Source: Nitrospirota bacterium (GTDB lineage Bacteria; Nitrospirota; 9FT-COMBO-42-15; HDB-SIOI813). From it: a stretch of DNA of 64,000 nt. The translations under genes were made by a program, and so were the position numbers. Location: positions 62,001 to 126,000 of the forward strand of contig JADZCV010000045.1 of NCBI GenBank assembly GCA_020851375.1, read 5' to 3'. Every line of letters starts with the position of its first letter. Position 1 is the first letter of the stretch. Below are positions 12,621 to 64,000 of the stretch, piece after piece. A model generated the notes under the pieces. The model made no database searches, was not told where the DNA came from, and worked only from the letters and a program-made list of their open reading frames with translations.

Positions 12621-13283
12621 TTACGGCAAGACCAAATTGCACTGCTGCGTTTTACTTATAAAATCCCTGATTGCATCATTGAAATAATCAGGCAGATCTG
12701 GTGGGTTTGTGTGTACACAGAATCTCTGCCTGTATATTGCCATACCTTTTTCGATTTCATCCTTCAGGATGTCATAAAAAGTGCCATCTGCTGCACCCTT
12801 GTATGCCGCATCAGAGTTATAAATAATTATATCGGATACTATTGCCCTGGCCAGCCTGCTTGCATCTTCGTTTAACTGAACCACCCCATCCGTTTGTTTA
12901 CATGGAATACCATGTGAACAATATTTGTAAACTGCCGGAAGGAGACCTGTGCTGAGGAGGTCAATTTCAATCACCTCATCAACATGCTCAATCTCATCCT
13001 TTTCCTGCTGCATGGAATTTCCGGTAACCAGGATAATCCTGGTATCACTGAACCGCTCAATACCCTTAATTATCCTCCATGTTTTTTTCCCCATAATCTC
13101 AGGAAGTCCTGAATCTGCAATTACGGCTACAGGCATATACGTTTCAATCAGACTGAATATCATGCGTTGATTTAACGCAGAAATAAGCGTAAAGCCTTCA
13201 GGTCCAAGTATGGAGGCGATAAGCCCGTTCAAACCGTCATCATCTGTACATATAATAATTGTGTCTTCTGATACGCCGTTCAT
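12621..13283 (-). CDS. Degenerate receiver-like domain protein with helical C-terminus
   Basis: A 220-residue protein. The N-terminal 120 residues resemble a response-regulator receiver: acidic TDDDG near 13, a candidate phospho-Asp in VIADSGLPE and Thr in LVTGN. The conserved Lys near the end of the domain seems to be missing, so phosphorylation may be altered or lost. The C-terminal half, with EDASRLARAIVSDIIIYNSD and GTFYDILKDEIEKG, resembles a helical module I have seen associated with signalling proteins of deltaproteobacteria but cannot name. The gene overlaps the CheW gene by 4 nt (ATGA), so it belongs to the cassette. Confidence 0.6.
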   Translation of the reverse strand: MNGVSEDTIIICTDDDGLNGLIASILGPEGFTLISALNQRMIFSLIETYMPVAVIADSGLPEIMGKKTWRIIKGIERFSDTRIILVTGNSMQQEKDEIEHVDEVIEIDLLSTGLLPAVYKYCSHGIPCKQTDGVVQLNEDASRLARAIVSDIIIYNSDAAYKGAADGTFYDILKDEIEKGMAIYRQRFCVHTNPPDLPDYFNDAIRDFISKTQQCNLVLP

Positions 13284-13771
13284 GTCTTCTCCATACTGGT
13301 TTCAATCAGCAGAATCAACCTGCTGTTGTAATCCATGGCAGCCCTGTAAAACCTCAGGTTTTCTTTTCCGATAAATTCGGGAACCGGGCGGAAACTTTCC
13401 GGGGAAATTGAAACAACCCCGCTTGTTGAATCAACAAGCATTCCGACAAGCATATCATTAAAATTGACAATAAGTATACGCGTGTTGACCTTCACTGTGG
13501 TGGCTGTTAGTCCAATATATTCCATGAAATCAATAATTGGAATGACAGTGCCCCTTAATGACAATACACCCCTTACATATGAAAATGTGTTGGGGACCTC
13601 TGTCACATCCACATAGTGGATCACTTCCACAATAATTGCGGCATCCATTGCATATTCCTGACCTGAAACACTGAAAATGAGGTATTTATCCGACTGGAAT
13701 TCGGAAACTTCTGCAGTGCAGTCTGACAAAGAGTCCCTGTCTTTTTCATCTACGCCTGGAGCGTAATTCAT
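13280..13771 (-). CDS. CheW-like adaptor of the purine-operon signalling cassette
   Basis: A 163-residue single CheW domain (about 25-160), with strands such as KYLIFSVSGQEYAM and the central GVLSLRGTVIPIIDF segment diagnostic for CheW. CheW proteins couple receptors to CheA kinases. Its partner should be the CheA encoded two genes upstream. No chemoreceptor gene lies in this cassette, so the input may be the DUF4388 protein or a receptor elsewhere. It is 15 nt after the GGDEF gene and overlaps the receiver-like gene by 4 nt. Confidence 0.88.
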   Translation of the reverse strand: MNYAPGVDEKDRDSLSDCTAEVSEFQSDKYLIFSVSGQEYAMDAAIIVEVIHYVDVTEVPNTFSYVRGVLSLRGTVIPIIDFMEYIGLTATTVKVNTRILIVNFNDMLVGMLVDSTSGVVSISPESFRPVPEFIGKENLRFYRAAMDYNSRLILLIETSMEKT

Positions 13772-13786
13772 AGCTGTCTCAAGAGA

Positions 13787-14713
13787 TCACCGGCCGCTGC
13801 CGTATGCAACGCGGTTTCTTCCTTCACGTTTTGCCTTATACAATGCCTGATCAGCCTTGTTTATGAGGGCATCACACCCATCCTTGGTATCATCAGGGAA
13901 TGTTGATACGCCAATGCTTGCAGTTACCTGCCTTCCTCCGTTTAGTTCTATCAGCAGGGGATTTTCTTCAATCAGCCTTCGGATACGTTCCGCAACTATA
14001 TGTGATCCTATAACTGTATTCTGTGAAAGGACAATGATAAACTCATCCCCTCCGTACCTTACTGCAAAATCATATCCCCTCAACATTACCTGCAGGAGTC
14101 TTGCGACTTCCCGTATGATTTCATCGCCGCGCTGATGCCCGAACGTGTCGTTAATGTCCTTAAAATTATCAATATCAAGAATAATAAGGGAAAGCTTCAG
14201 ATTGAATCTCTCACTCCTGTTATACTCCCTTCTGAGTGTACCATACAAATATCTCTGATTATATAAACCGGTCAGGGAATCCACGACACTCACATGTTCC
14301 AGCTCTGTAATCTTTGCCTTGAGCTCTTTCTGAAGGCCTTTTAATCTTAGTAAGATATTTACTCTTAGAGCAAGTTCGTGAGGATGAAAGGGCTTCGTCA
14401 TGTAGTCAATTGCACCACTCTCCAGCCCCCTGATCTTGTCATATATCCCCCTGTTGGCAGACAACATTATGACCATTAGGTCATCAAACCTTTTTTCCCT
14501 GCTCAGCATTTCCATCAATCTGAAACCATCCATCCCAGGCATCATTACATCACAGATCATCATGTCAATCTCTTCTCTGGATAAGATCTTTATGGCGCTG
14601 AAACCGTCATTGGCCTCGAAATAGTTTTCAAAAAGATTTGCATTCCTGAGACTTTCCTTTACCTTCTGTCTCATAAGGTGGGAATCATCAATTATCAGGA
14701 CACTGTTATTCAT
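13787..14713 (-). CDS. Response regulator with GGDEF diguanylate cyclase domain
   Basis: 308 residues: an N-terminal receiver (about 1-122, phospho-Asp in MMICDVMMPGMDG, Lys in MTKPFHPHE) and a GGDEF domain (about 145-305). The active-site loop is intact (RYGGDEF) and an RxxD inhibitory site (RGYD) sits five residues before it, so the enzyme should make c-di-GMP from two GTP with product inhibition. The layout is PleD/WspR-like. The CheA just upstream is the likely phosphodonor, making this the output of the cassette. Confidence 0.93.
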   Translation of the reverse strand: MNNSVLIIDDSHLMRQKVKESLRNANLFENYFEANDGFSAIKILSREEIDMMICDVMMPGMDGFRLMEMLSREKRFDDLMVIMLSANRGIYDKIRGLESGAIDYMTKPFHPHELALRVNILLRLKGLQKELKAKITELEHVSVVDSLTGLYNQRYLYGTLRREYNRSERFNLKLSLIILDIDNFKDINDTFGHQRGDEIIREVARLLQVMLRGYDFAVRYGGDEFIIVLSQNTVIGSHIVAERIRRLIEENPLLIELNGGRQVTASIGVSTFPDDTKDGCDALINKADQALYKAKREGRNRVAYGSGR

Positions 14714-14782
14714 TCTTACGACTTTTCGGAAGCTGACTGATAATCTTAAGAAATAATGGCTTCGTACAACGTCCCTGCGTTG

Positions 14783-16756
14783 TCAGAAAGGAACCCGGCT
14801 GCAGAATGTCCTGTCTGTCAGGCCGGCTATATCAATTACAGGCACAATTTTCTGTGTATCTATCTCAGCAAAACCTGCTATACACGGAACATCCTTAAGT
14901 AATTTGCCGGGATGTTTAACAAGTATCTCTCTCTGGCCATACAGTTTGTCAACTATTATACCCATTTTCTTCTGTGCCAGGCCGGCAATTATGACGTATC
15001 TGTCCTTTTGAAGGGTATCCGCAACCGCTGCTCCGTGATATTTCATAACATCATTCAATCTGACAAGCGGCAGATAATCCCCCCTGAGATTAATGCACTC
15101 CCTATCCCTTATAATCTTTATATCACACTCTCTCAACCTCAAATTCTCTGATATGGAATTTAAAGGTATTGCAAATTCTTTTCCTGAAGCGGATACTATT
15201 AATGCCCTCACTATCAGCAGGGATACCGGAATGGTAATCCTGAATATGGTTCCTTTTCCGTAAGTTGTCTCAACATCTATCATACCGGACAAAGCCTCAA
15301 TGTTTCGTGCCACAACATCAAGACCAACCCCCCTTCCGGATACGTCATCAGTTGTATCTTTAGTGGTAAAGCCAGGCTTGAAGAGCACCTGCATGAGACT
15401 TCTTTCATCCCTTTCATCAGCCATGATCAGGCCCATTCCAAGCGCAGAGTTGTATATAGAATCGAAATTTAACCCTCTGCCATCATCTTCAATTTCAATA
15501 ACAACATTGCTGTCCTTCTGCACGGCGCTAACTCTTATAATTCCGTCAGGATCCTTGCCTCTTTCCCTGCGCACTTTTTCATCCTCTATACCGTGGTCAA
15601 TTGCATTACGTATTAAGTGCATAAGCGGGTCTGCAAGCTCTTCTATCATAGACCTGTCAAGCCTCGTATCTCCGCCGGAAACTTCAAGACTTACCTTCCT
15701 GGACAACTCCTTTGACAACAAATCCACTATTCTGAATAGCCTTTCAAACAGCACTCCTACTGGCACCAATCGGATATCCAGAAGCCCGTCGCGCAGCGCT
15801 GCAATCTTCCTGTTCAGCAATTTATTACATCTGTTAACGTCAAGAAATGTTACATTGTAGCCGTATTTAATCTTTATGTCATTTATTGAGTGAGTCATGG
15901 AGCTGTTTAATAATAATATATCACCAACAGTATTCAGAAGATCTTCGAGCCGTTCAATGTCAACTCTCACAGTTTTTGTTATACTCTTTGCAGAATGAGG
16001 CGCAGCCTCAGGGACATCTGTGTCTTTCACCTCCATAATCCGGGTTACGGAGACGATGGCAGGGTGAGATATAGTATTATTGTCCGAAGAGAACAGTATC
16101 TCAAAAGACATCATGTCATCAGAAGAAAAACCGGATACAGGGATAACTGCAATGATCTCCCCGCAACCAGTCAGATACTCCCTTAATCCTGACATCTCCC
16201 CGTCTACACAGTCAATCTGCATGTGTGCCATAAGACTGTATATCCTGCGACCCTGCTTATGAGACGCCATAACCCTGTATTGTTCGAAATCCGAGAGTTT
16301 GGCAGCTAACTCATGTGGCATCCTGCTGTTAATATTTGCACCTGTATCATCCTGAATCCTGACTTTAAGAAGCTTGCCAATCCTTTCGACTGCAGGAGCT
16401 ATGTCGGAATACTCATTCCCCTGTTCATTTATATCATTCAGAAGTGCAGTAAATTTGTCCGCTACCTCGAACAAAGCATCTACAACATCATAATTTAACT
16501 TAATCCTGCCGAACCTCAGGGAATCCAGTAAATCTTCAAGTCTGTGACTTAAGGAACTGATTCTTGAAAAACCGGTTACATCAGATATGCCTTTTAAGGT
16601 ATGGATCCCGCGAAACAATGCATTAACGACGTCAGGATCGTGCACCTTCGCTGAATTACAGGATGTCTTGAGGATACAGAGGTTTTTGTTGAGGTGTTGG
16701 ATAATATCTTCTGCCTCTGTCAGAAACTCTTTATAGTCATTTCCCGGGTTACTCAT
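14783..16756 (-). CDS. CheA-type histidine kinase of the purine-operon cassette
   Basis: A 657-residue CheA. The N-terminal Hpt domain has the phospho-His in GIHTLKGIS. Then come a variable region, a dimerisation helix pair, a HATPase with LMHLIRNAIDHGIED and DVSGRGVGLDVV, and a C-terminal CheW-like domain. It lacks a receiver, unlike many alternative-function CheAs. It differs from the flagellar CheA at 58465-60249 in the Hpt and linker. The start overlaps the DUF4388 stop by 8 nt. The likely phosphoacceptor is the receiver-GGDEF protein 70 nt downstream. Confidence 0.92.
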   Translation of the reverse strand: MSNPGNDYKEFLTEAEDIIQHLNKNLCILKTSCNSAKVHDPDVVNALFRGIHTLKGISDVTGFSRISSLSHRLEDLLDSLRFGRIKLNYDVVDALFEVADKFTALLNDINEQGNEYSDIAPAVERIGKLLKVRIQDDTGANINSRMPHELAAKLSDFEQYRVMASHKQGRRIYSLMAHMQIDCVDGEMSGLREYLTGCGEIIAVIPVSGFSSDDMMSFEILFSSDNNTISHPAIVSVTRIMEVKDTDVPEAAPHSAKSITKTVRVDIERLEDLLNTVGDILLLNSSMTHSINDIKIKYGYNVTFLDVNRCNKLLNRKIAALRDGLLDIRLVPVGVLFERLFRIVDLLSKELSRKVSLEVSGGDTRLDRSMIEELADPLMHLIRNAIDHGIEDEKVRRERGKDPDGIIRVSAVQKDSNVVIEIEDDGRGLNFDSIYNSALGMGLIMADERDERSLMQVLFKPGFTTKDTTDDVSGRGVGLDVVARNIEALSGMIDVETTYGKGTIFRITIPVSLLIVRALIVSASGKEFAIPLNSISENLRLRECDIKIIRDRECINLRGDYLPLVRLNDVMKYHGAAVADTLQKDRYVIIAGLAQKKMGIIVDKLYGQREILVKHPGKLLKDVPCIAGFAEIDTQKIVPVIDIAGLTDRTFCSRVPF

Positions 16757-17780
16757 TTTGAGGTTTTGAAGCTGTCAACGCTATACCTGCAATCCTGACA
16801 AAGGCCTCAAGGGCTGACGTGTCGTCTATCTTGCTCCTTCCAGGCAGGTTGTCACCGTATAATACGGCCGTTACCTCTTTACCTTCAATCAATGGCGCTA
16901 TGAAAACCTCCTCAGGCACACCTTCACCCAGATGTTTTACGATATAGGAGTTCCAGTCTGTCTCAGGAAGCAGCCCCCTGTATGCCTGCAGGTTTTCCAT
17001 CGCATTTTTAATTACCGAAGGTTTATCAACAGGAATACGTAAATCCTTTATCCTTTTTTCTGTTGCCCCCATTGATATACCAACCTGCCCAAACCCAATT
17101 GCGCTGCCTCCTTTGATTTTAAAGATGACAGCCCTGCCCAGCGATTCACCGGCAATCCTGAGGATCATAACCAGCATCTCTGTGCGAACACACGGGATCC
17201 TGAGCTCTTCAATCAGCGAAACAATGGTATCGGAACGAGATCCGGAATTGCCGGCCGGCGTTTCAGAAGTATTTTTCTCATCCACAGACGATATAACCTT
17301 CTTTCCTTCATCTCTCAGTCTCGTCCCTTCAAGAAGTATGTACTCAGTACTGACGCTTATGCCCTGGGACACATATGGCATTGGCTGTTCAGGCTCAAAA
17401 CGAAAGACCCCTTCGTCCCATGAAAGCATCTCATAAATAACCTCTTTGACCAGCGACTGTATAAGGTTTTCAAGGACATCTTTGCCGATAAATTTATTCT
17501 CTGTCAGAATGGAACCTAACGGTTCATACACCTTCCTGTCCTTTTGGATCCTGAGTGCGATTTCAAGGTCGTCTTCCTTTAACTTACCTTCCCTGATCAG
17601 CCTCTCTCCCAGCATTTCTTTCCCCTGCATGGAGGCATAAAGTATCTGACCTTCATGAAAAACCACCCGCCCTTTACCGGCCTGGCTTTCCAAATTTAAA
17701 ACACCGCTTTTTTTACTTATGTGGACTATCTGAAGTATGTCAGGAAGGCTGAGATCTGATAAATGTCCTTCAAGGCTCAT
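16749..17780 (-). CDS. DUF4388 (PATAN) domain protein with GAF-like C-terminus
   Basis: 343 residues. The first 150 form a DUF4388/PATAN domain (GHLSDLSLPDILQIVHISKK, then GVLNLE, GRVVFHEGQILYA and EGVFRFE). After a low-complexity linker (about 165-195) the rest looks like a GAF-type sensor fold with IAPLIEGKEVTAVLYGDN. PATAN domains occur in two-component and small-GTPase signalling in many bacteria. As the first gene of the cassette and with no receptor nearby, it is a candidate input or scaffold for the CheA. It follows purS by 30 nt. Confidence 0.75.
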   Translation of the reverse strand: MSLEGHLSDLSLPDILQIVHISKKSGVLNLESQAGKGRVVFHEGQILYASMQGKEMLGERLIREGKLKEDDLEIALRIQKDRKVYEPLGSILTENKFIGKDVLENLIQSLVKEVIYEMLSWDEGVFRFEPEQPMPYVSQGISVSTEYILLEGTRLRDEGKKVISSVDEKNTSETPAGNSGSRSDTIVSLIEELRIPCVRTEMLVMILRIAGESLGRAVIFKIKGGSAIGFGQVGISMGATEKRIKDLRIPVDKPSVIKNAMENLQAYRGLLPETDWNSYIVKHLGEGVPEEVFIAPLIEGKEVTAVLYGDNLPGRSKIDDTSALEAFVRIAGIALTASKPQNE

Positions 17781-55302: not shown

Positions 55303-56916
55303 TTATAACCTGAATTGGGAGGTCACGGCCTGTAACTCTGATGCTATTTTAGAAAGTTCGTTTGCGGAATTGCTTGTTTCCCTGACACTGCCTGCAGTCT
55401 CTCTTGTAACAGCAGCTATGCCCTCCATATTTGATGATATATCCCCGGCTGCAGCAGACTGCTGCTCAGAGGCTGCAGCGATCTGATGAATCATATTTGA
55501 TACATTTCTTACTATATCTACTATCCTTGTCAGGCTCTCGCCTGCGCTCGAAGCAAGTTCCACACCTGTCTCAACATCTTTTCTCCCGCTGTTCATTGCA
55601 TCAACCGCCCCCGCTGTCCGCTTCTGAATAAACTCAATCTTATCCCTGATTTCTTTCGTTGATTTTGAAGTCCTCTCAGCAAGTTTTCTGACTTCATCTG
55701 CCACTACAGCAAACCCCTTTCCATGTTCACCGGCCCTCGCTGCCTCGATTGCAGCATTCAGGGCAAGAAGATTGGTCTGGTCCGCAATATCATTTATGAC
55801 AGTTATAATATACCCTATCCGGTCTGAATTCCTTCCAAGCTCTTCAATGGTCTTTGCAGACTCTTCCACATATTTTGCTATTCCCTGCATCCCTGACACT
55901 GTCATGGAAACAACCTCGCCTCCGTTCATTGCCATTTCCGAGGCCTTCCTGGCAAACTCAGCAGCCTGACTCGTATTGCCGGCAACCTGACTTACTGTAG
56001 CACTCATCTGCTCAATGGCAGTAGCGACCTGCGTAACCTGCATGTTCTGATTTTCAGTACCTTTGGATATATGCTCAGAGGTGGCAGACAACTGCATTGC
56101 CGTGAATCCGGCACGTTGAGTTAATTCAGCCGCCCTGGTAAGCACATCAGTTATTTTATCCGCAAATGTATTGAAACTTAGGGCAACTTCCCCTGATTCA
56201 TCCATCCTGTCTGTATCAAGCCTCCGTCGCAGGTCTCCGTCGCCTTCAGCAATTTCTTTAAATACCAATGCCAGATTGTGTAATGGCGAAACGGTCATTC
56301 GAGCTATGAAGTATGCCATAACGAATCCTGTAATTATCATGGCCAGGCTCATAAACGTAAATATCCTGTTATTCCATCCTGTTATGGATTCTATGTCTGA
56401 AATCCTGTTACTGAACATTTCAGAAGTTCTTCGTTTATACAATTCAAGCCGTTCTTTAAGCCCTGATACAGATTCACTGAATCTCGTCATACCGGATTCT
56501 ATCATCTGCGGGTCTCTGCTGATTACTGCCTCTGTTATCAGCCGGCCGTCATGGTTAAACCTTTCAAATAATTCGCTTATTTCTTCAATCTCCCTGATCC
56601 CGGATGCATCACTGATTTTAAGTTCATTGATTGATGCGGTAAATCTGTCTGAGCTCTCTTTGGCCCTGGCCATGATACGGGTATCTGCTGATCCAGCCGT
56701 ATTTGAGTAATAACCCACTATTGCCTGAAATTCGGATAAAAGAATATGTGTATGCTCAAGGCGCAGATAATCTCGGTTCCTGAGTTCATGTGAATGCCTC
56801 TGAATGGCTTTGTTTGAAATAAAGGAAAACAGGGTGGTAGAAACAAACAGGAGAGATAATATGCAGAAACCAAGATATATTTTCTGTCTTATTCGAAGAG
56901 AATTTAAATACCTCAT
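55303..56916 (-). CDS. Methyl-accepting chemotaxis protein
   Basis: 537 residues: a first transmembrane helix (about 12-32), a helical periplasmic sensor (about 35-185, four-helix-bundle type), a second helix (about 188-210), HAMP (about 210-265) and a cytoplasmic signalling domain. The kinase-control tip is intact: [20 protein letters not shown] and [15 protein letters not shown]. No CheR-tethering pentapeptide ends the protein. It follows a CheW gene by a 4-nt overlap (ATGA). Confidence 0.95.
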
Positions 56917-57365
56917 TCCTGGCCTACAATAAGCAGTTCTTCCAGATTCAAGACTGTAATCAGCCTATCTTCCTTTTTACCGATACCCATAATGTACTTG
57001 GAACTGGTATTTTCATCAATAGCAGGACAGGGCTCAAGCTCATCAGGACTGAGATTTATAACATCTATAACAGCATCCACGACCAGGCCTGTCATCCTTG
57101 TCCCGGAATCAACGACAATAATCCTTGATGATTCTGTACATTCTGTGACACTTGTGCCCATTCTGTTCCTTAAGTCTATTACCGGGACTATTTTTCCCCT
57201 GAGGTTTATTACACCTCCGACATAGGAAGGGGCCTTTGGGACCTTTACTGCTCCAATAACTCTTATGATCTCCTGAACCTTCATAATGTGTATACCGCAC
57301 TGTTCATTTCCTACCATAAAGGTAACTATTTGCAATGTATCATCTGCAACTGCATTGTTCTTCAT
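56913..57365 (-). CDS. cheW: Chemotaxis adaptor CheW
   Basis: 150 residues, one CheW domain: [20 protein letters not shown], then [20 protein letters not shown]. Links the chemoreceptor to CheA. Between cheB (34 nt upstream) and mcp (4-nt overlap). Confidence 0.94.
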
Positions 57366-57399: not shown

Positions 57400-58449
57400 T
57401 CACAACATATTGATTATTTCATCGGCGATCTTTCCAAGCGGAACTATCTTATCTACTACACCACTGTCTATAGCAGCCTTTGGCATCCCAAATATTATGG
57501 AACTCTCTTCATCCTGGGCAATAACTTTTCCGTTCATTTTCTTGATCATCTTAAGCCCTTCACAGCCATCCTGTCCCATCCCTGTCATAATGACACCAAG
57601 GGCATGTCCTGAATAAGTCTTCGCTACTGATTCCATAGCAACATCCACTGAAGGCATATGTATCATTTTGGGTTCATTGGTCAATCTTATGTGCACATCA
57701 CCTGCCCTGCCCCTTTCAACTGTAAGATGTGAACCTCCCTTTGCAATAAGCGCCAGTCCAGGTTTGATGATGTCGCCATCTTTAGCCTCCCTCACCCCAA
57801 TGTGGCACAACTCACCCATCCTCTCTGCAAAGGATGCAGTAAACAGGGGCAGCATATGCTGCACAACTATAATCCCGGCGGGAAAGTTTCCCGGGAGCCT
57901 TGGCAGCACGTCCTGAAGAGACTTGGGACCTCCTGTCGAGGATCCAATAATTACAATATTAATGCTGTGCGCATCAGGCTTATGCTTGAAGTCATGATTC
58001 AAAACAGAAACAGGTATTGCATCAACTAACCGTTTCATCTTATTTTTACTGCGGCCAAACATCTTTACCTTGCTTACAATTTCATCCTTTATATTGGTAA
58101 TATTAACGATATTTCCTGACAGATGCTTCGGCACATAATCAACAGCTCCAATATCGAGCGCCTTCATGGTCTCCCTTGCCCCTTCTTCAGTAAGGGAGCT
58201 GACCATTATAACAGGCACAGGCATATCCTTCATTACATGCCTCAGTGCATCCAGCCCATTCAGCCGAGGCATCTCAATATCCATTGTAACAACATCAGGA
58301 ACCAGGGACTTTACTTTGCGTACTGCATCCTCACCATCTGACGCCTCCCCGATAACCCTTATATCCGGGTCAGAGTTCAGCATACCGGTAATTGCCTTTC
58401 TCATAAATGCAGAATCATCCACCACAAGAACCCTAACAGGACTGCTCAT
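57400..58449 (-). CDS. cheB: Protein-glutamate methylesterase CheB
   Basis: 349 residues: receiver domain with phospho-Asp in VVTMDIEMPRLNGLDAL, linker, and methylesterase domain with the Ser in IGSSTGGPKSL, His in VVQHM and Asp in TGMGQDGCEG. Removes methyl groups from, and deamidates, chemoreceptors. It follows cheA by 15 nt. Confidence 0.97.
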   Translation of the reverse strand: MSSPVRVLVVDDSAFMRKAITGMLNSDPDIRVIGEASDGEDAVRKVKSLVPDVVTMDIEMPRLNGLDALRHVMKDMPVPVIMVSSLTEEGARETMKALDIGAVDYVPKHLSGNIVNITNIKDEIVSKVKMFGRSKNKMKRLVDAIPVSVLNHDFKHKPDAHSINIVIIGSSTGGPKSLQDVLPRLPGNFPAGIIVVQHMLPLFTASFAERMGELCHIGVREAKDGDIIKPGLALIAKGGSHLTVERGRAGDVHIRLTNEPKMIHMPSVDVAMESVAKTYSGHALGVIMTGMGQDGCEGLKMIKKMNGKVIAQDEESSIIFGMPKAAIDSGVVDKIVPLGKIADEIINML

Positions 58450-58464
58450 TACGAAGGACCTCCC

Positions 58465-60249
58465 CTATGCTGTTGCCAACTCCTTTTGTTTGTAAATCAA
58501 TGATCCGGGGTCAAGTATCAGCCCCACTTTGCCGTCGCCTGTAATAGTTGCGCCAGACACCTCTTTTATATCTGTAAAATATGAACCGACTGGTTTTATT
58601 ACAACCTCTTCCTGATGGCACAACTCATCTACAATGACTCCAACCTTTTTCTCAGCAATATCCATGAGGACAACATACACCCAGTCACGCTCCGCCTCAT
58701 CGCTGGCCAGTTCCAGCGCATCGCTGAGCTTAATAAGAGGAATCAGGCTGTTTCTGACATTAAGGATTCTCTGACCATCAATGATTTTGAGACTGCTCTT
58801 GGGAACCCTGAAAGTCTCATGAATGGAAACAAGGGGAAGCGCATACATCCCGTCATTTACCTTGACCATCAGAACCTGAATTATGGCAAGTGTAAGCGGT
58901 ATTTTAAGCGTCATCTGCGTCCCTTTGCCAACTTCTGAATTTACATCTATTATTCCATTTATACGTCCTATGTTGGTTTTTACGACATCCATCCCGACGC
59001 CTCTGCCTGATATGTCACTAACCTTTTCAGCAGTACTAAAGCCTGGTTCAAAAATATAGTTTATAATCTCTTTGGATGATAATTTAATATCCTGATTTCT
59101 AATAAGACCACGCTCCCGGGCCTTTTTTTCAATAACTGAAGGATCAATACCCTTTCCATCATCCTCAATCTGAATTACTATGGAGTTGCCTTCCTGACAT
59201 GCTTTAAGTCTGATAGTACCTGTCTCAGGTTTTCCATTTTTTACCCTATCCCCGGGTGCCTCAATCCCGTGATCTATGGAATTCCTGATGAGATGAACCA
59301 GAGGGTCATTAAGTTCTTCTATTACTGACTTGTCTATCTCTGTGGCCTCACCAAGCATCTCGAGATTGATCTTTTTATTTGCCTTTCTGGCAATATCGCG
59401 CACCATCCTTGGAAATTTATTAAATACCTTCCTGATTGGCACCATTCTCATCTTCATAACTGACAGCTGAAGGTCTGTCGTGATAAGACTGAGGTTGGAT
59501 GAGGTCTCAAGGAGGGTCTTGATCTTCTCGTCTCCATCGTATAATCCCTCAATATCAGAGAGTATCTTTGTCAGTCTGTTTCTGCTAAGTACCAGTTCAC
59601 CGACGAGATCCATAACGTGATCAAGCCGGTCAGTATCAATTCTCAATGTCTGTTCTTTTTCTTCAACAGCTGCAACAGCCTGTTTTTCCGATACCCTGTC
59701 TGCCGACTCATTTACCGCAGCCGGTTTAACAGGTTTAACAGATTCGGATAGTTCGACCTCCGGAGCCTGAGAAATCACCTGGTTTGCACCTGGCTTCTCT
59801 TCAGCGTTTTCGGATGCATTGGGATCTGATGATGACGAATCAACAAGCGCTGAGTATTCCAGAAGTAATGCCAACTTTCTTTTTATAGTACTTATATCAA
59901 CCTTATCGCCGGAACTATCCTTTATCTCGCTCATCAGGACCTTCAACACGTCAACTGATTCAAGGATTATATCTATGGTCTCAGATGTTGCCTGTATCTC
60001 CTGCTGACGGAGTTTGTTCAATACATTTTCAGACTGATGGGCCACCTCTACAAGACGCGTAAATCCGAGAAATCCGGCAGAACCCTTGATACTATGCACC
60101 GCCCTGAATATCTCATTAATAAGACCCAAATCACCAGGGGCCTCCTCAAGCGTTACAAAACACTTATCAAGCCCTTCAAGCACCTCATCAGTCTCTACAA
60201 CAAAATCCCTTATCAGCTCCTGCATCTCATCCTGCGTCTCGTCCGCCAT
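58465..60249 (-). CDS. cheA: Chemotaxis histidine kinase CheA
   Basis: About 594 residues: Hpt with phospho-His in VHSIKGSAGFLGF, a Pro/Ala/Glu-rich linker (about 150-200), dimerisation helices, HATPase (LVHLIRNSIDHGIE, DISGRGVGMDVVKTN) and a C-terminal CheW-like domain. The receptor-type kinase of the flagellar pathway. I start at ATG 60249, 5 nt after AGGAGG; the frame runs on to 60270. A 149-bp repeat separates it from the CheW-CheZ gene. Confidence 0.96.
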   Translation of the reverse strand: MADETQDEMQELIRDFVVETDEVLEGLDKCFVTLEEAPGDLGLINEIFRAVHSIKGSAGFLGFTRLVEVAHQSENVLNKLRQQEIQATSETIDIILESVDVLKVLMSEIKDSSGDKVDISTIKRKLALLLEYSALVDSSSSDPNASENAEEKPGANQVISQAPEVELSESVKPVKPAAVNESADRVSEKQAVAAVEEKEQTLRIDTDRLDHVMDLVGELVLSRNRLTKILSDIEGLYDGDEKIKTLLETSSNLSLITTDLQLSVMKMRMVPIRKVFNKFPRMVRDIARKANKKINLEMLGEATEIDKSVIEELNDPLVHLIRNSIDHGIEAPGDRVKNGKPETGTIRLKACQEGNSIVIQIEDDGKGIDPSVIEKKARERGLIRNQDIKLSSKEIINYIFEPGFSTAEKVSDISGRGVGMDVVKTNIGRINGIIDVNSEVGKGTQMTLKIPLTLAIIQVLMVKVNDGMYALPLVSIHETFRVPKSSLKIIDGQRILNVRNSLIPLIKLSDALELASDEAERDWVYVVLMDIAEKKVGVIVDELCHQEEVVIKPVGSYFTDIKEVSGATITGDGKVGLILDPGSLIYKQKELATA

Positions 60250-60294
60250 CTCCCCCTCCTGCAATTTCAATTAAAACATGTGTATTCTTAATTT

Positions 60295-60443
60295 TTGCTC
60301 AAAAACGTTCAGATGCAAGGAAAGACATAAGATTTGAGGCGAGGCGTACTGTGTAGTACGTTGAGTCTCATATTTTATGTCTTGACGCCGCACGACCCAT
60401 TGCATTTACTTCGCAGCAATGGGTGCCCGGCGTTTTTCAGCAA
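60295..60443. repeat. 149-bp palindromic element with terminal inverted repeats
   Basis: Ends TTGCTCAAAAACG (60295-60307) and CGTTTTTCAGCAA (60431-60443) are inverted repeats at 12 of 13 bases. Inside are a 16-bp inverted pair (60323-60338 and 60367-60382), a CGTACT/AGTACG hairpin (60345-60360) and a CCCATTGC/GCAATGGG hairpin (60396-60403 and 60416-60423). No ORF. It looks like a MITE or REP-type element placed inside the chemotaxis operon between cheA and the CheW-CheZ gene. Confidence 0.75.
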
Positions 60444-60446
60444 TAA

Positions 60447-61574
60447 TTAATCGAAACCGAATTCCTTTAGTATATTATCCACCACATCCTGCTTCAGTGT
60501 AGGATTACTTGTAAACTGTTTAAGTGAGCTGTCCCCTTCTATTGAATCCTTAGATTTGAGTCCAAAGGTAACAATCAGCTGAAGCAGACGCTTCTCCACA
60601 TCTTCAATAAGACCCACTATCATCTTGATCTTCTGCCCTGTCAGGTCCTGAAAAGAAAGGCTGGTGATAATATCCATCAGTATCTCCCGGTTCTCTGAAA
60701 CGACATTTTTTACTTCCCCGATTGAATTTACAAGATCATTACCCCTTTCTGCAGACTCGGCATGATGAATAATCAGATCATGATTATCAAGCACCTTTTC
60801 AACCTGGCCCATCACTGTATGTGTTGCAGCCTCTGTAGCCCTGGATATTTCCGACAACTGTACAGATGCCTGCGGAATTTTGTCTGAAGCATGTGTTATA
60901 TTTGGTTCAACTGCCTGCATCTTTTTTATGGTTGTATTGATATATCTGGCAATATCACCTAACTGTCCATACAATTCTTCCTTGACTTCATGCTGAAAAT
61001 CACCCTGAGACATTGCCCTTGCCGCATGAACGAGCTGATCTATATCATTAGTGGAACAGTCAGAGACATTAAAGTCTGATTTATTTTCATACGTATTCTG
61101 TACAGTATCTGCAAGACCGCTGCCCTGACCATAGTCCTTAAACAATTGTGCAAGGTCAAGCACTATTGTAATATACCCGTTATTCCTGATAATACCACTT
61201 ATATACTCAGAGCTTATGCTCTTTGTAATCGCCGGGGGATCTTCAAGGCTTTTATCAGAAACTCGCAATACCTCAGATACGGCATCAACAAGAATGCCAA
61301 TTTTATCTCCGTTTAATCCAACTATAATAATTCTCGTATCTTTTGTTATTTCTCCTGCAGGTATTCCAAGTTTTCCCCCGAGGTCAATTACCGGAATGAC
61401 AAGGCCGCGAAGATCTATGACACCCAGGACATTGCCAGGGAGTTCAGGCATCCTGTTGATATGCTCATATCTGTTGATCTCATGTACATCAGCAATATTA
61501 ACCGCAAATTTCTCCCCGCCTACTGAGAACCCCACCAACTGCAATACCCCCTCTGACTGTTTTTGTGCCTGCAT
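60447..61574 (-). CDS. CheW-CheZ fusion: receptor adaptor joined to CheY-P phosphatase
   Basis: About 375 residues. Residues about 5-145 are a CheW domain (VGFSVGGEKFAVNIADVHEI, LGVIDLRGLVIPVIDLGGKL). A HAMP-like helical stretch follows (about 175-215, ARAMSQGDFQHEV), then a CheZ long helical hairpin with SFQDLTGQKIK carrying the catalytic Asp (about 310) and Gln (about 314), and a C-terminal DNILKEFGF like the CheY-docking tail of CheZ. I start at ATG 61574, preceded by AAGGAG; the frame from 61607 overlaps cheY. It would place the CheY-P phosphatase in the receptor array. Confidence 0.88.
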   Translation of the reverse strand: MQAQKQSEGVLQLVGFSVGGEKFAVNIADVHEINRYEHINRMPELPGNVLGVIDLRGLVIPVIDLGGKLGIPAGEITKDTRIIIVGLNGDKIGILVDAVSEVLRVSDKSLEDPPAITKSISSEYISGIIRNNGYITIVLDLAQLFKDYGQGSGLADTVQNTYENKSDFNVSDCSTNDIDQLVHAARAMSQGDFQHEVKEELYGQLGDIARYINTTIKKMQAVEPNITHASDKIPQASVQLSEISRATEAATHTVMGQVEKVLDNHDLIIHHAESAERGNDLVNSIGEVKNVVSENREILMDIITSLSFQDLTGQKIKMIVGLIEDVEKRLLQLIVTFGLKSKDSIEGDSSLKQFTSNPTLKQDVVDNILKEFGFD

Positions 61575-61593: not shown

Positions 61594-61977
61594 TTATTTA
61601 CCGTCAAATATCTTCTCTATCTTCTCCTTCAGGACATCGGCTGTAAAAGGCTTCACAACATAATTATTGACTCCTGCCTTTATGGCATCCAGTACATTCT
61701 CTTTCTTGGCCTCTGCTGTCACCATGAGTACAGGTACAGAGCTCAGTACATTGTCTGCGCGTATAGCCCTTAACAGGTCAAGTCCGGTCATATTAGGCAT
61801 GTTCCAGTCAGACACCACAAGACCGAACCCACCCTGCCGCAGTCTTGCAAGCGCGCTGTTGCCGTCTTCTGCCTCTTCAATATCCGTGTAACCAATCTGT
61901 TTCAGGATATTCTTCACTATCCTGCGCATAGTGGAAAAATCGTCCACAACGAGCACCTTCATCTTAAGATCTAACAT
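61594..61977 (-). CDS. cheY: Chemotaxis response regulator CheY
   Basis: 127 residues, single receiver: [19 protein letters not shown], phospho-Asp in [16 protein letters not shown], Thr in [11 protein letters not shown], Lys in [11 protein letters not shown]. This is the flagellar-type CheY that binds the motor switch. Just upstream of the CheW-CheZ gene and overlapping the other receiver gene by 14 nt. Confidence 0.95.
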
Positions 61978-62350
61978 ATCTGCACCTCTCCAATATTATT
62001 TTTACCTCTTCTACGAGACTCTCCTTCGTTATAGGCTTTGTCAGAAATGCCGTAGCGCCTTTTTGTATCAATTCAGTCTTTCTTGTGTTGTCATTCTCTG
62101 TTGTTAATATAACCAGTGGAATCTGCATATACGAAGGATTACTGCGCACCCATTCTATCAGCCCTGCACCATCCATCTGCGGCATATTGAGGTCTGAGAT
62201 GATCATATCCACGCCGGATGAAACGAGTTTCTCTATCGCCTCAACCCCATTGCCGGCTGATATTGTCCTGAATCCGGCGCTGCCAAGGTACAGTGATACT
62301 ATTTTCCTCGTTGTCCTGCAATCATCTACCACTAAAATGCTTTTTTCCAT
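61964..62350 (-). CDS. Second single-domain response regulator (CheY-like)
   Basis: 128 residues: [19 protein letters not shown], phospho-Asp in [19 protein letters not shown], Lys in [16 protein letters not shown]. Less like the motor-binding CheY than the next gene; it may act as a phosphate sink or in adaptation, or drive a different output. It overlaps cheY by 14 nt and lies 41 nt after cheR. Confidence 0.9.
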
Positions 62351-62391: not shown

Positions 62392-63246
62392 CTACTTCTG
62401 ATAAATCAGTACGTTATTGGCATTTACGATCTTAAATGCCCTTGATATATTAAACAGCGATTCTGAATGACCTATAAACAGATAACCGCCGGATAACAGA
62501 CTGTTATACAGGCTTGAGATGACTTTCTTCTTGGATGCCTCATCAAAATATATCAGGACATTTCTGCAGAATATGATGTCCATCCCCCTGTACATCCTGA
62601 TGGCAGCGTCATCAGACAGATTTATATTACTGAATCTTACCAGCCTTTTAACATCCGGTTTGATGGCATATTTGCCGCCGCCATTCTTTGTAAAGTACCT
62701 GTCCAGATGCTGCGGGGACAGATTGCGCACGGAATAATCATTATACTCACCCCTTCTTGCCGAGCTCAGCACAGCTTCACTTATATCGCTTCCGTGTATC
62801 TCTATGTCCCAGTCTTTATACTCAGGAGCTGACAGTGTATCCGAAACCATGATGGACAATGTATAAGGCTCCTCTCCTGTAGAACAGGCAGCGCTCCATA
62901 TGCGCAGTTTATTGCTTCCCCTGGCTTTCAGTTTTTTAACAATCTCCGGCAATACAACGGATTCAAAAGCCTGTAACTGGCCAATATCACGGAAAAAAAA
63001 AGTTTCATTTGTAGTTATTATATTAAACAGAAATGTAAACTCTTTTTCCTTTCCGGCATCATGTTTCAGGAAATCTATATACTTGTCAAAGCTCCCATAA
63101 CCGGCATCTTCAATATGCCTCGCGAGCCTGTTTTCAAGTAAATATTTCTTGTTATCCGGAAAGTGCATGCCGCTTCTGCTGTAAATCATGTCCCTGAGTG
63201 AATAAAATGCGTTATCACTCATTTTTACTGTATTAGTAGTTAACAT
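62392..63246 (-). CDS. cheR: Chemotaxis protein methyltransferase CheR
   Basis: 284 residues: an N-terminal helical domain (FYSLRDMIYSRSGMHFPDNK), then a SAM methyltransferase with WSAACSTGEEPYTLSIM and IIFCRNVLIYFDEASK. Methylates chemoreceptor glutamates, opposing CheB. No TPR tail. Its start overlaps the HEAT gene by 14 nt; a later ATG at 63222 is possible since neither has a clear Shine-Dalgarno. Confidence 0.95.
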   Translation of the reverse strand: MLTTNTVKMSDNAFYSLRDMIYSRSGMHFPDNKKYLLENRLARHIEDAGYGSFDKYIDFLKHDAGKEKEFTFLFNIITTNETFFFRDIGQLQAFESVVLPEIVKKLKARGSNKLRIWSAACSTGEEPYTLSIMVSDTLSAPEYKDWDIEIHGSDISEAVLSSARRGEYNDYSVRNLSPQHLDRYFTKNGGGKYAIKPDVKRLVRFSNINLSDDAAIRMYRGMDIIFCRNVLIYFDEASKKKVISSLYNSLLSGGYLFIGHSESLFNISRAFKIVNANNVLIYQK

Positions 63247-64000
63247 ATTTGGATGACATCAGCTTGTTATATGCCTCAACAGCAAAATCCCTGATCTCCT
63301 GATCCTCATCTGAGGCTGCAGCCCGCAGAATATCTTCTGCCTCCTGTGCGCCAAGCTCTCCGAGCGCCCATATTGAACTTTTACGGACTGTGTAATCCTG
63401 GCTTACCGCAAGTCTCATGAAATGAGGAATTGCCCTGATACTTTTCTGCCTGACAAGTCCTTCAATAGCCATTATTTGAATCAGGTCATTATTATTCTCA
63501 AGCAGTTCAATAAGGGTATCAATAGCCCTGTCATCCTTATATTCACTTAATAGTTGAGCCACGACCATTCTGACTTCATCTTTCTCATCATGGGCGGCAA
63601 TTATCAGATTATCAAGCAAACCTTCATCTTTCTGAATGCCAAGGACCTCAAGGCACGCCCGCCTGACTCTCCAGTTTTCGTCATTGAGCAGTCTATTAAT
63701 CTCTTCAGATGAATCAATCCATCGCAATTCTCCGAGCCCCTTTACCACCATTTCTCTTATAGATGGATTCTTACTATAAAGTCCGTTGATAAGCCCGTAA
63801 GCCAGTTCTTCTTTTTTATATCTGAGACCTATCCTGATTAAAGCGCTTACGATCCTTGCAATGACATTGTGATACTCCTCTTTCATTAGCCGCTCTAACA
63901 ACGGCTTTATGGCATCTGCCTCTGCCATCTCTCCAAGCGCTTCCACAGCAGCTTCTCTGATGTGTCCTTCATCACAGGACAATTTGCCGGAAATAAATCT
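63233..64000 (-). CDS. HEAT-repeat protein (5' end beyond the window)
   Basis: At least 255 residues of HEAT/PBS-lyase-type repeats, about 31 residues each, with the pattern VREAAVEALGEM, VRRACLEVLG, VRKSSIWALGELG. The frame is open to the right edge (64000) with repeat-like sequence, so the start lies outside. HEAT proteins form scaffolds; this one is first in the chemotaxis set that I can see and overlaps cheR by 14 nt. Function unknown. Confidence 0.85.
   Translation of the reverse strand, partial: RFISGKLSCDEGHIREAAVEALGEMAEADAIKPLLERLMKEEYHNVIARIVSALIRIGLRYKKEELAYGLINGLYSKNPSIREMVVKGLGELRWIDSSEEINRLLNDENWRVRRACLEVLGIQKDEGLLDNLIIAAHDEKDEVRMVVAQLLSEYKDDRAIDTLIELLENNNDLIQIMAIEGLVRQKSIRAIPHFMRLAVSQDYTVRKSSIWALGELGAQEAEDILRAAASDEDQEIRDFAVEAYNKLMSSKYVNY

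Follow-up and report, generated by a model that had tools for sequence, protein, structure and literature searches.

In E. coli, the CheY-P phosphatase CheZ is recruited by the short form of CheA and has DXXXQ as its phosphatase motif, according to the accessible sections of PMC7750401, in agreement with the contrast to enteric cells that the initial annotation of the present locus had drawn. The location of CheZ has been argued to alter responses, on the basis of E. coli experiments and models (excerpts of PMC2673030 and PMC1447658). CheO, which binds both CheA and CheZ, was considered here as another CheZ localiser; the available part of PMC9665402 contains nothing on fusions. The criteria for CheZ in PMC2829493 seem, from the passages at hand, to cap its length at 300, so that fusions of CheW with CheZ would be left out. 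No description of such a fusion was found among open-licence PMC papers, to which the search was confined.

The open reading frame described here, hereafter called cheWZ, lies in a window of 64,000 nucleotides (the whole stretch of DNA that was analysed) from a Nitrospirota bacterium. The coordinates in the initial annotation were right; the strand, which it had not given, is the minus strand (Table 1). On that strand the interval is a single open frame of 375 amino acids; read on the plus strand, it is interrupted by many stop codons. A Shine-Dalgarno-like AAGGAG just 5' of the ATG at 61574 favours that start. Both domains that had been assigned to the protein were recognised in the one frame far above the Pfam gathering cut-offs: the CheW part scored 129.8 bits with PF01584 (cut-off 23.5) and the CheZ part 74.1 bits with PF04344 (cut-off 30.7; E 1.9e-20, in two stretches, of which 280-374 was the best). 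The CheW part also matched PDB entry 2qdl (E 3.3e-26) in a PDB sequence search. The NCBIfam equivalog models for CheW (NF007903, 70.5 bits, cut-off 260) and CheZ (NF008368, 51 bits, cut-off 257) were not reached by CheWZ, nor by four other fusions; these models suit single-domain, enteric-type proteins. Pfam gave no Response_reg match within CheWZ, which thus does not have the architecture of CheV.

Table 1 Features of the cheWZ gene and its operon in the window
Feature	Position	Strand	Extent or content	Evidence
cheWZ gene	60447..61574	(-)	375 aa, ATG 61574, stop 60447; CheW - linker - HAMP-like - CheZ - tail	Open frame, Pfam, Shine-Dalgarno-like sequence
CheW domain	61134..61541	(-)	Residues 12-147	Pfam E 6.8e-38, 2ho9 alignment, model match to CheW structures
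Variable linker	61044..61133	(-)	Residues 148-177	Length and sequence differ among relatives
HAMP-like segment	60918..61043	(-)	Residues 178-219; second helix continues into CheZ	PF00672 E 0.011
CheZ phosphatase domain (predicted)	60453..60977	(-)	Residues 200-374	Pfam, 1kmi_Z alignment, predicted helices 226-276 and 281-338
Catalytic motif FQDLTGQ	60633..60653	(-)	Residues 308-314 (D310, Q314)	E. coli CheZ alignment
C-terminal CheY-docking peptide (predicted)	60453..60491	(-)	Residues 362-374	Aligned to 1kmi_Z C-terminus
cheR	62392..63246	(-)		Pfam
Second single-domain response regulator	61964..62350	(-)		Response_reg E 3.1e-25
cheY	61594..61977	(-)	19 nt upstream of cheWZ	Response_reg E 2.7e-31
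cheA	58465..60249	(-)	ATG 60249; Hpt, dimerisation, ATPase and CheW domains	
cheB	57400..58449	(-)		Pfam
Standalone cheW	56913..57365	(-)		Pfam E 6.6e-37
Chemoreceptor (MCP) gene	55303..56916	(-)		MCPsignal E 5.9e-52

The residues expected of the two domains are present. In the alignment with 2ho9, the E. coli CheW residues E38 and R62, which we take to be interface residues, correspond to E32 and R56 of CheWZ; these two positions do not vary among 16 fusions and show conservation of at least 90 % in a set of 59 rows in which fused and standalone CheW are mixed. Residues 200-374 align with residues 16-214 of the E. coli CheZ structure 1kmi, and the catalytic motif and CheY-docking tail named in the initial annotation were both recovered, D310 and Q314 of the DxxxQ motif falling on D143 and Q147 of the E. 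coli enzyme and the tail on the end of the 1kmi_Z chain. Neither of these two catalytic residues varies across the 16 fusions.

An AF2 model of CheWZ built with 59 alignment rows replaced an earlier one built with 16 rows, which was poor (mean pLDDT 63.8). The newer model has a mean pLDDT of 78.4; most of CheW reaches about 90-97 and the central part of the hairpin 90-96. It consists of a CheW fold, helices 175-189 and 199-222, a long hairpin (226-276 and 281-338) and a helix at 362-371. It matched CheW structures with Z up to 20.7 and 1kmi_Z with Z 9.1 (rmsd 3.2, 120 residues), the latter a weak match of a kind that unrelated helical bundles also reach. Foldseek searches with both models returned only CheW-type domains at E <= 0.001.

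A frame or assembly error uniting two separate genes, which the initial annotation had raised as an objection, is refuted and has virtually no chance of explaining cheWZ. The gene is found whole in four genomes of the same family (G002, G003, G006 and G007, with 81, 64, 59 and 60 % identity, respectively), fusions occur in at least 69 Nitrospirota genomes, among them that of L083, a public contig from the same family, and selection acts on the CheW and CheZ parts alike. In comparison with G002, dN/dS was 0.04 for CheW, 0.036 for CheZ and 0.27 for the linker (taken as residues 150-177), with synonymous sites near saturation, and the CheY-docking tail had zero non-synonymous changes; these ratios point to strong purifying selection on both domains. 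The HAMP-like segment gave 0.17 against G003 and 0.20 against G007, with a value of 0.70 against G006 that was out of line. An origin on a plasmid was also considered and rejected: among 72,556 plasmid records searched at the protein level, 294 had matches, none of which covered 80 % of the query.

The operon reads cheR, REC, cheY, cheWZ, cheA, cheB, cheW, mcp, with gaps that are short or overlapping except for 197 nt between cheWZ and cheA. The standalone CheW and the CheY said to be co-encoded with the fusion are thus both in its operon, identified by Pfam, and the product of this cheY is the probable substrate of CheWZ. The genome (98 % complete) holds two CheA and three MCP genes and one CheZ only, which is the fused one. 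A scan for promoters and terminators revealed nothing standing out, and no internal start for a short CheA stood out in the partner CheA, a scan in which the start of the E. whittamii control scored no better. The 197-nt gap (60250-60446) can fold into strong hairpins (-57.8 kcal/mol, a value without a shuffle control); the corresponding gap of relatives is shorter.

Several observations were made around the operon. A gene for a HEAT-repeat protein, at 63233-63982 of the window and beyond, overlaps cheR, and a frame of 600-654 amino acids, known as a frame only, adjoins cheR in five loci of family f1 (L043-L046 and L048) and was absent from L047, as judged by eye. L047 (1-1827), from a genome of the window's family (G004), has a che cluster reduced to three genes at the end of the contig: cheR, a gene for a 162-amino-acid relative of the fused CheW, and cheB. 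The G004 genome gave no CheZ match. On the minus strand at 13280-17780 the window has a second chemosensory-like cluster, which encodes a CheW-like protein, a REC-GGDEF protein, CheA and one more protein; apart from CheA and CheW, its domains were named by eye. No CheR, CheB, CheZ or receptor was seen beside it.

Between the linker and CheZ, the HAMP family PF00672 matched with 16.5 bits, below its gathering cut-off of 25. Among 12 related proteins, 7 matched HAMP at E <= 0.1, the best at 2.1e-7. The standalone CheZ of family f7 at L049 (1052-1723) has a HAMP match of 31.0 bits, above the same cut-off, directly before a soluble CheZ; this protein and its counterpart L011 align with CheWZ from residue ~175 onward, and the f7 gene occupies the same operon slot as cheWZ (cheY-cheY-cheZ-cheA). 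The simplest history for the fusion of the window's family would be that CheW was added in front of a standalone HAMP-CheZ. The initial annotation was sound as to a genuine fusion, its motif, tail and operon; it had missed the HAMP-like segment, the fact that this is the only CheZ in the genome, the spread through the phylum and the existence of two CheZ lineages.

The taxonomic range, which the initial annotation had proposed to search, was determined in three phyla, a limited number of candidates being scored in each genome. A profile of 16 fusions identified CheW-CheZ fusions in no fewer than 69 of the 295 Nitrospirota genomes, in 15 family codes (up to 6 candidates per genome); this number, counted by eye from the best matches, consists of 66 genomes with one spanning match and of G002, G006 and G019, in which the match was in two pieces within one frame. 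CheZ of any kind was found in 176 of the 295, so CheZ can function without being fused. Fusions were present in 4 of 345 Thermodesulfobacteriota genomes, the genome of L092 being a fifth (up to 5 candidates per genome), and in 0 of 398 Pseudomonadota genomes (up to 4 per genome). A scan of contigs listed 80 loci, 14 of them fused, of which 13 had Nitrospirota titles and L092 was titled Deltaproteobacteria. The architecture is common in Nitrospirota and not peculiar to the organism of the window.

Some loci of Betaproteobacteria appeared fusion-like from the span of their matches (e.g. L130 and L138) and were rejected, having a standalone CheZ beside CheW proteins of 310-360 amino acids, which are probably CheV. 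Two genomes, G159 and G290, each have two CheW-CheZ fusion genes. In Thermodesulfobacteriota, CheZ proteins of 430-540 amino acids, in which something other than CheW makes up a long N-terminal part, were seen at L205-L215 (G465, G619, G514, G341, G377, G340, G558, G410, G536 and G599); one of the four scanned had a weak Hpt match (E 0.009), which may be another route to the addition of domains to CheZ.

The number of fusion events was assessed from a tree of 68 hand-picked CheZ domains (67 of 140 distinct ones and L197) and a tree of 77 hand-picked CheW domains out of 190; groups were named by architecture beforehand, and nested standalone rows joined the tests after the tree had been seen. 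In the CheZ tree a branch with support of 100/99 separates two lineages. Lineage A comprises the fusions of families f1 and f2 and of G347/G383, together with standalone HAMP-CheZ, the CheZ of family f9 and Thermodesulfobacteriota CheZ, and lineage B comprises the fusions of most other families (T1) with long Thermodesulfobacteriota CheZ and most Pseudomonadota CheZ. A clade of all fused CheZ was rejected (AU p 9.8e-18, five nested standalone rows included), and a clade of f1, f2 and G347/G383 was weakly rejected (p 0.027). The clade of f1 and f2 was rejected without the nested L051 and not rejected with it (p 0.108), so that these two families may share one fusion; T1 plus its nested rows was not rejected as one clade (p 0.229). 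In lineage A the fusions precede cheA, occupying the position of a standalone HAMP-CheZ, and T1 fusions are placed between cheA and cheB, as far as can be judged from gene labels that rest on crude motifs, and this gene order agrees with separate fusion events.

From the trees and gene order, at least two CheW-CheZ fusion events are likely, and recurrent fusion appears likelier than a single origin. The alternative history, in which all CheZ proteins, whether fused or standalone, descend from one ancestral fusion through repeated loss of CheW, would be compatible with the function proposed below and is considered unlikely. A single clade of fused CheW domains was not rejected (AU p 0.208), with the consequence that the CheW tree does not decide, and T1-type CheZ in two genomes (L203 and L204, from G343 and G467) lack CheW and have an N-terminus like the fusion linker, an apparent leftover, as if a fusion had been split again. 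However, a single origin conflicts with the rejection of one fused-CheZ clade and with the different operon slots of lineage A and T1 fusions, and it would require many separate losses.

CheW binds receptor tips and the P5 domain of CheA. Judging from its domains and conserved residues, CheWZ is probably a CheY-P phosphatase that enters the receptor array through the adaptor domain which it carries itself and not via a short CheA. The CheW domain would occupy a place in the receptor-kinase array, by which the CheZ phosphatase would be held beside the kinase, and the separate standalone CheW would fill other adaptor sites. The CheZ domain is predicted to form a dimeric helical hairpin whose C-terminal peptide docks CheY-P, and D310 and Q314 would strip the phosphate from it. 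We infer that CheWZ is active as a phosphatase, dimerises through CheZ and becomes part of the array, and that CheY-P is made and destroyed at one site. As adaptor and CheY-P off enzyme are parts of one protein, the receptor array probably contains its own off switch for the motor signal.

The CheZ half could instead be an active phosphatase with the CheW half outside the array, its location depending on a short CheA, on contact between CheZ and CheA, or on neither. Other CheZ proteins do localise without CheW, that of A. caulinodans being polar without CheA (PMC7750401, in the sections available), and the T1-type CheZ of G343 and G467 have no CheW, so that tethering is apparently dispensable there. 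However, the fused CheW evolves as slowly as CheZ in the comparison with G002 and retains residues conserved in standalone CheW, and a CheW half outside the array is decidedly unlikely.

P2 is the CheY-binding domain of CheA. It was not detected in the partner CheA, whereas the control CheA of E. whittamii shows one, and this absence could suit a mainly CheV-like adaptor, the tail of which would gather CheY and speed phosphotransfer from the P2-less CheA, phosphatase activity being minor. P2 domains are divergent, so an absent match is weak evidence; moreover, all 16 fusions retain the catalytic D and Q, and the CheAs adjoining standalone CheZ (L049 and L085) are also without a detected P2, which makes such a role for CheWZ highly improbable. 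For the same lack of specificity, a P2-less CheA was rejected as the cause of the fusion.

The proposal of an array-borne CheY-P phosphatase may be extended further. In a speculative and rather doubtful version, the fusion would have arisen independently at least twice and, in the lineage of the window, CheWZ would be a receptor-gated phosphatase, in which the state of the array passes from CheW through the HAMP-like two-helix unit to the CheZ bundle. Kinase and phosphatase would then be set together by the receptors and, CheZ being dimeric, each CheWZ molecule would bridge two adaptor sites of the lattice.

A phosphatase has apparently been fixed to the adaptor in a whole bacterial group, and apparently more than once, which bears on the old question of how strongly chemotactic signalling depends on where the CheY-P phosphatase is located; a natural fusion of adaptor and phosphatase also offers simple constructs (split versus fused) for that question. 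Surveys that count CheZ by length, or that label such genes CheW, may miss the phosphatase of Nitrospirota.

One close relative in build is the standalone HAMP-CheZ of family f7, which shares with CheWZ the HAMP-CheZ unit and the slot between cheY and cheA and differs in being without a CheW domain. CheV, according to the part of PMC4742279 at hand, similarly uses a CheW domain to bring a signalling domain to the array; its cargo, however, is a receiver that can be phosphorylated and may, as has been suggested, serve as a phosphate sink, whereas that of CheWZ is CheZ, with no receiver detected. In the CheA-CheC/CheX fusions of Leptospirae (excerpt of PMC10542144) a CheY phosphatase is likewise built into an array component, but the phosphatase fold is unrelated to CheZ and is joined to the kinase and not to the adaptor. 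With E. coli CheZ and its short CheA, CheWZ has in common the phosphatase domain, the catalytic pair, the CheY-docking tail and a phosphatase brought to the array, a placement that for CheWZ is presumed from its CheW domain. In E. coli, however, the recruiter is a separate CheA isoform, whereas in CheWZ adaptor and phosphatase share one chain, with a HAMP-like segment before CheZ.
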